The position numbers were made by a program, and so were the translations under genes. This document shows, one piece after another, positions 32,921 through 37,055 of a stretch of DNA of 64,000 nucleotides (position 1 is the stretch's first letter; each line of letters begins with the position of its first letter). Where the stretch lies: assembly GCA_030431635.1 (NCBI GenBank), contig JAUIIL010000003.1, positions 124,001-188,000 of the forward strand. The letters are read 5' to 3'. The notes below the pieces were generated by a model that saw nothing but the letters and a program-made list of their open reading frames with translations, did not search any database and was not told the DNA's origin. The DNA comes from Bacteriovoracia bacterium (GTDB lineage: Bacteria > Bdellovibrionota > Bacteriovoracia > Bacteriovoracales > Bacteriovoracaceae).

Positions 32921-33535
32921 TTAAGAAGACTTTTCCTTATTATAGTCAAAATTATAGGTATCAGGAATAAAAAGGTTCCAATTTCTCTGAGTTGTTTTGT
33001 TACGCCGGTAACTATGAAAAAGAGAGGAGCTAAAAGTGCAAATACCAGAGTCTTCGACTGAAATATTTTGATAATATTCAACTAGAGCATCTTGTGCGTA
33101 TTTAGTGAGATCGAAATAAAGAGCATCATCCAAGAATTTAAAATATTCTTGAGGAAAATAATTTTTAAAATCTTCTCCAACCTGGTAGGAATCAACATGA
33201 ATATGAGGGCCAATAAAAGCATATATGGGGGCAATTTTTTTTAGTTGAGGATTTTCTAGAATTTTTGAATGCAACCCTCTCCATCCGGCATGAACAAGGG
33301 CATTTCCATTTTTTCCTTGAAGAAAAATAGGCAAGCAATCAGCTGTTTTTATCCCCCAAATATGAGAACTTTCTTTTTGAGAGTAAAGACCATCGGCTTT
33401 TAGTTTCTTTAGAGAAGCTTCAACAATATCATTTCCATGAACTTGTTCGACTTCGGTAAACGAGAAAGATGGTTTTTCTGAGAAAACAATGAATTTTCCA
33501 TTGGGAAGTATTTTTTCATATATTCCTTTATTCAT
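32921..33535 (-). CDS. pgeF: PgeF/YfiH-family multicopper-oxidase-like domain protein
   Basis: A 204-residue protein, shorter than the usual 240 or so. It has the zinc-site residues of the family in QVHGND, TADCLPIF and VHAGWRGL. E. coli PgeF edits mis-incorporated amino acids in peptidoglycan precursors; other members act as purine nucleoside phosphorylase-like enzymes. It overlaps the start of the rluD reading frame's end by eight bases, which matches the frequent rluD-pgeF pairing. Confidence 0.85.
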   Translation of the reverse strand: MNKGIYEKILPNGKFIVFSEKPSFSFTEVEQVHGNDIVEASLKKLKADGLYSQKESSHIWGIKTADCLPIFLQGKNGNALVHAGWRGLHSKILENPQLKKIAPIYAFIGPHIHVDSYQVGEDFKNYFPQEYFKFLDDALYFDLTKYAQDALVEYYQNISVEDSGICTFSSSLFHSYRRNKTTQRNWNLFIPDTYNFDYNKEKSS

Positions 33536-34496
33536 TCTTCATTGCTTCTTGGACTTTTTGAAAAATGAGAGGAGGAGGTGTTTCAAACGAGAGTTCTTTT
33601 CCAGTCATAGGGTGTTTAAAGCGAAGTATTTTGGCGTGCAAAAAAGGATGTTCATAGGAATCAAATACTTTTTTGATAGCAGGTGAGAGTCTTTGATTTT
33701 GTTCATTGATTCGACCGTAGAGCATATCATTAATAATAGGCTTATTAAGAAGCTCGCTGAGGTGAACTCTAATTTGGTGAGTGCGGCCTGTTTCAAGTTT
33801 TAGCTCTAGATGAGAGGACTGTTTATACAGATCAAGAACCTTAAAATAAGTGATGGCTTCTTTTCCGTTTTTAACATGGGCCTTCATTTTAAGTCTATTA
33901 TAAGGGCTTCGACCAATTGTCGATTCTAGTTTACCTTCTTGAGGAATTTTTATTCCAAGAACGAGAGCTTCATAATACCTTTCAATGTCATGTCTTGAAA
34001 AAATATCAATAAGTTTTTGATGAGTCTTATCTTCTTTGGCCACAACCATGACACCACTTGTTCCCTTATCAAGCCGATGAACAATTCCAGGCCTTTTAAT
34101 ATTTCCAATCCCTCTCAGATCAGGACAATGATAAAGGATGGCGTTGACAAGTGTACCATCTGGGTTACCTGGAGCAGGGTGGACTACCATGCCAGCTTCT
34201 TTATTGATGATAATGAGATGTTCGTCTTCATAAAGTATTTCAAGTGGAATATTTTGAGGTTTCGCATCATCATCTTCAAGAGAGGGAAGGTTGATGGTGA
34301 TTGTTGTTCCAACGGGTGGCATTTTTTTTAATTCAATTTTATCAGGGCCCTGAATTAGGCCTTGTTCGTAAAATTTTTTAATTAAACTTCTACTGAGTTC
34401 TGGGATTTTTTTGGCAATAAGAACATCAAGTCTTTTATGAATCAGATCTTCATCTGCGATGATAATCTGAATGGTTTTATCGATATCATCATCCAT
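33528..34496 (-). CDS. rluD: RluD-family 23S rRNA pseudouridine synthase
   Basis: A 322-residue enzyme with an N-terminal S4 RNA-binding domain (about 15-75: HKRLDVLIAKKIPELSRS) and a catalytic domain with the active-site Asp in HRLDKGTSG and a TGRTHQIRVHL motif. It modifies uridines in helix 69 of 23S rRNA if it is true RluD; the RluC/RluD distinction cannot be fixed by eye. It overlaps pgeF by eight bases. Confidence 0.92.
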   Translation of the reverse strand: MDDDIDKTIQIIIADEDLIHKRLDVLIAKKIPELSRSLIKKFYEQGLIQGPDKIELKKMPPVGTTITINLPSLEDDDAKPQNIPLEILYEDEHLIIINKEAGMVVHPAPGNPDGTLVNAILYHCPDLRGIGNIKRPGIVHRLDKGTSGVMVVAKEDKTHQKLIDIFSRHDIERYYEALVLGIKIPQEGKLESTIGRSPYNRLKMKAHVKNGKEAITYFKVLDLYKQSSHLELKLETGRTHQIRVHLSELLNKPIINDMLYGRINEQNQRLSPAIKKVFDSYEHPFLHAKILRFKHPMTGKELSFETPPPLIFQKVQEAMKNE

Positions 34497-34505
34497 TGGA
34501 AAAAA

Positions 34506-35255
34506 CTAAGACTCTTGTTGTTTAACGGTCTTGAGATGCTCAAGGTAACTTTTGCAAACAAGATCTGGATTTAGTTTTAAGCATTTAGCATATTGAAAAA
34601 CAAAACCTCTCACGTAAACAAAGGCAGGGAGTTTACTGTAGTTATCAGATTCAATATTTCTAATATGAGTCTTTGAAACTTTTGTCATTTCGGCCATTCT
34701 TTCAACGCTTACTTTTTTGTATTCTCTTATTCTTTGCAAGAAAGATCCTGTAAATTCAGTCGTATTCTCAATTTCTTGTTCCATTTCTTCATTGACAGGG
34801 TAATCAAGAGAAAACTTTGAGTAGGCTTCAGCTCTTGAGGCTGTTGATTTATTTTGAATGCTTGAATATTGAAACTCTTGTTTTCTAAATTCTTCTCTTT
34901 TCAAATCGTGAGCAGAAACCTGGTCTTTTTGATAGGAATGAGAATTTGTTTCATTTGATTGAGAAATAAGATCAGCAAGACTTGAAGTAGGAGCTGGTCT
35001 ATGATGAACGTGCTCCCCAAAACCTCTTGCTCTATCGTACTGTGTTCTTTTCTCAGGAGCTCCTAAAACAGAGTAGGCTTCTTCAATAGCGGATAAAATA
35101 TTAGCGCAATCTTCTTCAGTTAAAAGAGAATATAGAGCAGCACTCTCTCCAGCATAGGCATTTCTGGAGCGAATATAGGCTTGATGAATTTCTTCTTGAG
35201 TTGAAGTCGTTGGAATTTCTAAAATCTCGTAATAGTTTTTATCTTCAATATTCAT
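34506..35255 (-). CDS. J-domain-like plus RodZ-type helix-turn-helix fusion
   Basis: A 249-residue protein. Residues about 7-78 follow the J-domain pattern (KNYYEILEIPTTSTQEEIHQAY ... YSVLGAPEKRTQYDRARG), but the His-Pro-Asp tripeptide that activates DnaK is absent: the loop reads RNAYAGES. A polar linker (about 80-165) leads to a RodZ/HTH_25-like domain (about 170-245: LQRIREYKKVSVERMAEMTKVSKTHIRNIE, then LPAFVYVRGFVFQYA). It has no membrane segment, unlike RodZ. It lies three bases downstream of a MinD-type ATPase gene, which suggests a shared role in positioning or envelope organisation. Confidence 0.75.
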   Translation of the reverse strand: MNIEDKNYYEILEIPTTSTQEEIHQAYIRSRNAYAGESAALYSLLTEEDCANILSAIEEAYSVLGAPEKRTQYDRARGFGEHVHHRPAPTSSLADLISQSNETNSHSYQKDQVSAHDLKREEFRKQEFQYSSIQNKSTASRAEAYSKFSLDYPVNEEMEQEIENTTEFTGSFLQRIREYKKVSVERMAEMTKVSKTHIRNIESDNYSKLPAFVYVRGFVFQYAKCLKLNPDLVCKSYLEHLKTVKQQES

Positions 35256-35257
35256 GA

Positions 35258-36157
35258 CTAAGAAAACTCCAGTAATCTGTGAATAATTTTATCAAAATTT
35301 CCCACCAGTCTTGAATTAGGAAATTCCATCAGAAGCGGACGCCTTTTCTTTACACTTTGCCAAACACTCGCATCATAATCAAGGTATCCGATATAATCCA
35401 TATCAATACCAAAATATTTTTTACAAATACTTTTCATTGAAAAACCAATATCAATATCAGACTGGCTTCTGGCTTGGTTGATAATAAGTTTTGGTTGAAA
35501 TTTAGAGATCTCTGATTGGAGTTTTGCGCCCATATCTGGATTTAGTTCATAAACTTTTTTTACCAAATCAGTTGGAGTTGCTTGTGTATTGGTCATTTTT
35601 GCATTCATCGCTTGGTGAAGCAGCGGTTGAATATCGAGAAGATCTTCAATCAGTTTAAGCCTTCTGTAATAAACAGATTTAATAAATCGATATGTATTTT
35701 CAATAGAAGTTGGCTCAGGAAGAACAACAAGAACACCCTTGTCTGCTGAAATAAAAAAATCCAGAGTGTTGTAACTTGTTCCAGCACCAAGGTCGATAAG
35801 AACATAGTCTGCATTAATTTCTCTCAAGGACGTGAGTATTTTATTTTTATGAGTGTGCTTAAGGTTGGCCATGCCAAGTTCATCTTGAGCAGCACTGATA
35901 ATTGAGAGGTTTTTAATTTTTGTTGGAATAATAAGTTCTTCAATATTATTAACTTTTTTTGTGACGTAATCAGAGAGTGTTTTATCAGGAATTGGCATTC
36001 CAAGTGTTGTGTGAAGGTTTGCTCCACCTAAATCAAGATCGATGGCCACAACTTTATAACCCATAAGGGCAAGACCAATTGAAGTGTTGGCCGTGACAAG
36101 AGATTTTCCAACTCCACCTTTACCACCACCTATGGCCCATAATTTAGTGTGAGACAT
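35258..36157 (-). CDS. MinD/FlhG-type P-loop ATPase
   Basis: About 299 residues from the ATG at 36155-36157, which starts SHTKLWAIGGGKGGVGKS. This is a deviant Walker A with the signature first Lys. It is followed by VVAIDLDLGGANLHTTLG and DYVLIDLGAGTSYNTLD. The set is typical of the FlhG/MinD-2 group, which positions flagella, pili or division proteins. The reading frame stays open 41 codons further to a TTG at 36280; that part looks coding but has no ribosome-binding site, so the start is uncertain. It is the first gene of the six-gene operon. Confidence 0.85.
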   Translation of the reverse strand: MSHTKLWAIGGGKGGVGKSLVTANTSIGLALMGYKVVAIDLDLGGANLHTTLGMPIPDKTLSDYVTKKVNNIEELIIPTKIKNLSIISAAQDELGMANLKHTHKNKILTSLREINADYVLIDLGAGTSYNTLDFFISADKGVLVVLPEPTSIENTYRFIKSVYYRRLKLIEDLLDIQPLLHQAMNAKMTNTQATPTDLVKKVYELNPDMGAKLQSEISKFQPKLIINQARSQSDIDIGFSMKSICKKYFGIDMDYIGYLDYDASVWQSVKKRRPLLMEFPNSRLVGNFDKIIHRLLEFS

Positions 36158-36395: not shown

Positions 36396-37055
36396 ATGCT
36401 GCAAACAAGTGAATCAACGATAGATAATTCTGGGGCCAAACGCTCTGATTTACATTTACCTCGAAAAATTTGGCACATGGGAATGGGTTCTTTGTGTTTG
36501 GTTTTTTACTATAGTTTTGTTGAAAGAGAATCTCTGGCCCTTCTCGCTTTTGTTGTCGCTGTTCTAGGTTTTGTTTGGGATATACTGAGAATTAAAAATA
36601 GAAAAGTGAATGAAATAGCTTTCAAGATAGGTGGGCCTCTTTATAGAGATTCAGAGAAAAGTGGAATTAGCGGTCTTCCTTATTATGCTTTAGGTATTTC
36701 TCTGTCTTTATTTTTCTACAAAGAGAATATAGCTCTTTTATCTATTTGGTTTTTAGTTTTCTCAGACCCTATCTCATCACTCTTTGGAATTTTGTTTGGC
36801 AAAGATAAAGTTCTTCCTAATAAATCAATTCAAGGAAGTGCTGCTGGTTTTTGTACATGTTATCTGATTACTCTTTTCTATTGTCTTAAAATATCAGGGG
36901 TGACTGAGAACCTTGTTCTTTTTTCTTTAATAGCTGGATTGATAGGCAGTATTTCAGAGCTACTTTCAGCCTTTAAGGTTGATGATAACCTCACTATTCC
37001 TGTTGTCTCTGGATTGGGATTAAGTGTTCTAAATCACTTCTTTCAAGTTCTTTAG
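36396..37055 (+). CDS. Diacylglycerol/polyprenol kinase-like membrane protein
   Basis: A 219-residue integral membrane protein with about six to seven segments. RKIWHMGMG near residue 24 and SDPISSLFG with NKSIQGSAAG later match the CTP-dependent lipid kinase group (SEC59/DGK1-like, CDP-diglyceride-synthase superfamily). Members phosphorylate diacylglycerol, dolichol or phytol-type alcohols with CTP. The substrate here is not predictable. It is a lone plus-strand gene; the start follows GAGAAG at moderate spacing. Confidence 0.75.
   Translation: MLQTSESTIDNSGAKRSDLHLPRKIWHMGMGSLCLVFYYSFVERESLALLAFVVAVLGFVWDILRIKNRKVNEIAFKIGGPLYRDSEKSGISGLPYYALGISLSLFFYKENIALLSIWFLVFSDPISSLFGILFGKDKVLPNKSIQGSAAGFCTCYLITLFYCLKISGVTENLVLFSLIAGLIGSISELLSAFKVDDNLTIPVVSGLGLSVLNHFFQVL

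Follow-up and report, generated by a model that had tools for sequence, protein, structure and literature searches.

The window, the whole stretch of 64,000 nucleotides of Bacteriovoracia DNA that was analysed, carries two adjoining genes on its minus strand. The first (35258..36157) encodes an ATPase of the MinD/FlhG family (ParA/MinD, or A/D), recognized by its matches to Pfam PF10609 and PF13614 and by the invariant residues of the family. The second (34506..35255) encodes a protein of 249 amino acids in which a J-like domain is joined to a helix-turn-helix (HTH) domain of the RodZ type, that we call the J-HTH protein. A first-pass annotation had reported the pairing of such a fusion with a MinD/FlhG-type ATPase, and both open reading frames are indeed there, although the stop codon of the ATPase gene is separated from the ATG of the J-HTH gene by 2 bases and not by the three that had been given. 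In the loci that we read the genes adjoin and are co-directional, the gap ranging from about -23 to about +90 bases. They were adjacent on one strand in every genome from which both were fetched, except in G142, where they are split between contigs.

The pair has conserved neighbours. Downstream lies the gene for an RluD-type pseudouridine synthase (33528..34496, minus strand; PF00849, with synteny across families), and this is usually followed by a YfiH-type (Cu-oxidase_4) gene (32921..33535, minus strand; PF02578, also syntenic). Nearly all loci that extend far enough have rluD after the J-HTH gene, often with yfiH next, and so does L092, a locus that has no ATPase gene. A function linked to the ribosome or to rluD and yfiH might be read from this conserved cluster, but we consider it most improbable; housekeeping genes can stay next to one another without sharing a function, and neither protein of the pair has anything that points to RNA. 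Just upstream of the ATPase gene there is a divergent open reading frame (36396-37055, plus strand) for a membrane-protein-like product of 219 amino acids, for which no Pfam match was found. Similar frames occur in many loci (L062-L097).

The domains of the J-HTH protein are well defined. The J-like domain occupies residues 7-74 (35034..35237, minus strand) and matches DnaJ PF00226 with 35.4 bits (cut-off 27.8), while the HTH_25 domain occupies residues 173-231 (34563..34739, minus strand) and matches PF13413 with 67.2 bits (cut-off 24.6), aligning without gaps to RodZ 2wus. Between them lies a linker (34740..35033, minus strand) whose alignment columns are for the most part gaps or variable. 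An AlphaFold model calculated from 43 aligned relatives has a mean pLDDT of 84, with values below 60 over about residues 81-140 of the linker. The J part of the model matches the J-domain structure 2och with Z 11.5 and an rmsd of 1.3 over 66 residues, and the HTH part matches 2wus with Z 11.2 (VIA re-alignment in both cases). A Foldseek search of the PDB with the whole model gave no match at E <= 0.001, so that the folds are assigned chiefly from the profile hits and the Z-scores of the second aligner. The fusion noted in the first pass is thus confirmed, and its N-terminus, which it had allowed might prove to be some other domain, has the J fold according to both the profile and the model.

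We find no membrane helix in the J-HTH protein, as had been said before; its highest 19-residue hydropathy is 0.86, against 2.5-2.7 in RodZ-type sequences that bear a transmembrane helix. RodZ has a single membrane helix and a periplasmic domain and the J-HTH protein has neither, although the two have in common the HTH_25 domain and both of the aromatic residues that contact MreB in RodZ. Identity with RodZ itself is ruled out, since the membrane part is missing; the genome has a separate RodZ-like protein of 431 amino acids with a membrane helix (L099:409-1704, minus strand).

A J fold ordinarily offers an HPD tripeptide to Hsp70, setting off ATP hydrolysis. In the protein of the window the loop between helices II and III is AYAGESAALYSLLTEE, and HPD is absent. 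It is likewise absent from between these helices in all 119 aligned sequences of the family, indicating an old HPD-less J-like lineage within the phylum and not the recent decay of a single genome. The earlier statement that the protein has lost the HPD is therefore right as to its absence, but not as a local loss. A role as a DnaK co-chaperone (a functional Hsp40) is ruled out, as the J fold is present while HPD is lacking throughout the family. The J-HTH protein is an HPD-less J-like protein with a RodZ-type HTH, and is neither a J co-chaperone, having no HPD, nor RodZ, having no membrane part. Pam16 and the chloroplast J-like proteins are described as having a J fold without HPD (PMC11349236, PMC3196505), and the J-HTH protein has this in common with them.

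The segment that stands in place of HPD is itself conserved, roughly as AYS-x-[DN]-x-x-A-[LI]-Y-[ST]-[LIVM]. In the protein of the window it forms the loop of residues 36-45 (GESAALYSLL; 35121..35150, minus strand), of which A40, Y42, S43 and L44 make up the motif that proved to be linked to the ATPase when conservation was compared with and without that gene.

The ATPase has 299 amino acids counted from its ATG and contains the deviant Walker A sequence GGGKGGVGKS, with the KGGVGKS element and a match to the ParA/MinD profile. FlhG and FleN are the nearest solved sequences, the top match in the PDB being FleN 5j1j (5.9e-24). Against the MinD equivalog (TIGR01968) it scores 85.9 bits, below the cut-off of 212.9 bits, and the C-termini of the family, inspected for the membrane-targeting helix found at the C-terminus of MinD, vary from family to family. 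A flagellar identity can be ruled out, as FlhG is encoded by a separate gene in a separate operon. The flagellar cluster flhB-flhA-flhF-flhG-fliA of the same genome, identified by gene order and by inspection, lies at L098 (G000:C3:310000-322000), away from the ATPase gene of the window, and its flhG-like gene, which sits after the flhF-like gene, encodes a protein with 31% identity to the ATPase over about 158 residues. Thus the ATPase is like FlhG/FleN in sequence, but its gene adjoins rluD and yfiH outside the flagellar operon. Matches to FlhF are found in genomes that have the ATPase and in genomes that have lost it, and some genomes with strong matches lack it; as a test this is weak, because most genomes of the window's family fall under the cut-off. 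By sequence, then, the protein belongs to the ParA/MinD class, and is neither MinD by the equivalog cut-off nor the flagellar FlhG. ParA homologues of B. bacteriovorus described as studied are Bd1326, Bd2331 and Bd3906 (PMC7186360).

Two variants of the ATPase gene were seen. The linked ATPase of L119 and L120 (G229 and G162) has about 262 amino acids, as a middle stretch is missing, with the Walker A sequence and a VWQS motif retained. G188 has a second copy (L126, C50:36147-37007), beside which no J-HTH gene was found, as well as a linked pair.

We searched each of 241 genomes of one phylum with both profiles, reading counts from the tables at thresholds of 1e-6 and 1e-30. The ATPase was found at E <= 1e-30 in 203 of the 241, a count that, like the others, includes draft genomes in which genes can stay hidden. 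Both genes are present in 203 genomes, the J-HTH gene alone in about 23 and neither in about 15, and none of the 241 has the ATPase without the J-HTH protein. The genomes with neither are those with only RodZ- or DnaJ-like matches, which were counted as lacking J-HTH; all lack the ATPase too. Where the flanks of J-HTH genes in ATPase-less genomes were read, they held no ATPase-like open reading frame. The dependence is therefore one-sided: the ATPase appears to need the J-HTH protein, while the converse does not hold, and on several occasions the ATPase has been lost and J-HTH retained. The phylogenetic profile proposed in the first pass accordingly bears out the pair in that the genes do not separate freely, but the link runs in one direction only. 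One of the genomes counted as having J-HTH but no ATPase, G054, encodes the HTH part alone as a protein of 103 amino acids with no J domain (L093:4483-4794, minus strand). A scan of the genome collection with one sequence gave matches only from the same group, and no full-length match was found on plasmids. Among open-licence papers we found none on the pair.

The occurrence of genomes that have J-HTH but no ATPase allows the two states to be compared. For this we used an alignment in which 100 J-HTH proteins come from genomes with the ATPase and 19 from genomes without it. In the A40-x-Y42-[ST]-[LIVM] loop, 98 of the 100 have both A40 and Y42 intact, compared with 2 of the 19 (L131 and L132). 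The same is found within families on comparing ATPase-bearing with ATPase-less members: the loop is intact in 15/15 against 2/9 in f6, 16/17 against 0/3 in f11, 2/2 against 0/3 in f21 and 3/3 against 0/1 in f3. In f18, where all sampled members are ATPase-less, it is intact in 0/3. Sixty-five columns are conserved in the ATPase-bearing set, and the four in which conservation falls most are 40, 44, 43 and 42, with Fisher p values of 2e-9 to 7e-11 per column when the sequences are treated as independent, though they are related. Over the same comparison the J core and the HTH alter little, mean conservation falling from 0.71 to 0.63 in the former and from 0.74 to 0.65 in the latter. The HPD-replacing loop is thus kept intact almost only in genomes that have the ATPase, which is the new finding of this analysis. 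We know of no other HPD-less J-like protein in which the replacement of the HPD loop is conserved solely where a MinD-type ATPase is also present.

Kinship among the sequences was checked with a quick tree of 85 sequences from which the loop columns had been left out. On this loop-free tree 7 changes account for the presence of the ATPase and 8 for that of the motif. The best tree yields seven independent pairs, and three remain when only strongly supported branches are used. When pairs were drawn at random on the latter, the change in the motif either matched that in the ATPase or showed no difference, and was never in the opposite direction. With only three supported pairs a sign test cannot reach significance, and the case rests on repetition in several families. 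Genus g42, in family f6, is instructive. The loop is kept in L119 and L120, which have the shortened ATPase, and in L131 and L132, from which the ATPase has been lost, and is broken in the other five sampled; this fits an order of events in which the ATPase is lost first and the motif afterwards.

The pattern suggests that selection on the replacement loop is bound up with the ATPase, and since the loop is maintained in step with the ATPase the simplest reading would be that it now contacts that protein. It could also be that the loop makes no such contact, and that after loss of the ATPase a surface loop of the J domain simply changes first under relaxed selection. There are weaker falls in conservation elsewhere, at E13, L54, D74 and K192, and in G054 the J domain has gone outright, as would be expected of such a process. 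Yet on those branches conservation persists both in the hydrophobic core of the J domain and in the HTH, and the four columns out of 65 that fall most all lie within one short loop, so we think relaxed selection an unlikely explanation. The loss of the J part in G054, where the HTH alone is kept in the absence of the ATPase, can also be counted in support of a contact between loop and ATPase. The earlier view, by which the J part no longer serves DnaK, is probably correct, but it missed the main point, namely a replacement loop that seems to be selected together with the ATPase.

We propose that the J domain has probably been re-wired from DnaK to the neighbouring MinD-type ATPase. The ATPase would be an orphan of the MinD/FlhG type and the J-HTH protein its dedicated partner. 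The N-terminal J domain would no longer act on Hsp70, and the A-x-Y-[ST]-[LIVM] patch, formerly the HPD loop, would contact the MinD-like ATPase and probably control its nucleotide cycle, perhaps by stimulating hydrolysis. The C-terminal RodZ-type HTH would anchor the complex to some other structure, which might be MreB, DNA, or a polar or cytoskeletal site, and the pair would position a cargo. On balance we incline to this reading as a whole, in which the physical binding, the stimulation of ATP hydrolysis and the positioning of cargo are all inferred. A joined model of the ATPase and the J-HTH protein, with a pTM of 0.60 and confidence that is lower near the loop, gives no usable evidence of an interface and must be counted against it. 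The retention of the motif in L131 and L132, the weaker falls outside the loop and the small number of supported pairs also tell against it.

The arrangement may be compared with that of other A/D ATPases and their partners, such as ParB, MinE and McdB. There too a deviant Walker A ATPase is followed by one dedicated gene, as described in PMC10241942, and the partners have a two-ended build in common with the J-HTH protein, with one end (in J-HTH, probably) facing the ATPase and another end elsewhere. The known and proposed partners described in that source use a positively charged, disordered N-terminus. The J-HTH protein has instead a neutral tail of about 8 residues (median length 8, median net charge 0) and then the folded J domain, and such a partner would therefore act through a folded domain, a difference that likewise speaks against our reading. 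It is possible, and we put this forward tentatively, that an Hsp70-activating loop has been rebuilt as the activator of a positioning ATPase of the MinD/ParA type, giving a folded-domain activator conserved through most of the phylum, which comprises predatory bacteria and their relatives.

What the HTH end might bind can be approached through RodZ. Y214 and F218 of the J-HTH protein align, by way of the ungapped 2wus alignment, with the aromatic residues of RodZ that contact MreB, described in E. coli as F60 and Y64 (PMC4047632). The two positions are Y or F in 99/100 and 96/100 of the proteins from ATPase-bearing genomes and in 19/19 of those from ATPase-less genomes. This retention in nearly all members, together with RodZ being the nearest structural match of the HTH part, is consistent with a polarity or cytoskeleton module, as suggested in the first pass; in it the HTH would bind MreB in the manner of RodZ, with the ATPase placing the complex at the poles or along the cell. 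That would be one version of the cargo end proposed above. MreB was found in all but one of 60 genomes, those without J-HTH included, and being near-universal its co-occurrence says nothing for or against a link; moreover, the genome of the window also encodes a RodZ-like protein that does have a membrane helix, and the neighbours of the pair are rluD and yfiH and not shape genes. We regard the module as conceivable, but on the unlikely side.

Alternatively the HTH might bind DNA, with the FleN/FlhG-like ATPase acting on the HTH protein as FleN does on FleQ. The fold of the HTH resembles XRE-type DNA binders (3qq6, HigA), and FleN is the top PDB match of the ATPase. The HTH nevertheless belongs to the RodZ class, which is best known for binding protein rather than DNA, and such a transcriptional switch seems to us distinctly doubtful.

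MinD/ParA-type ATPases place much of the positioned content of the bacterial cell, and many of them are orphans whose partners cannot be recognized. The pair described here names a candidate partner for one such orphan across a phylum, and singles out four residues of a loop. If that loop acts on the ATPase, the J domain would exemplify the recruitment of an Hsp70 activator to another class of ATPase, and predatory bacteria, with their unusual polarity and division, would gain a candidate positioning system.
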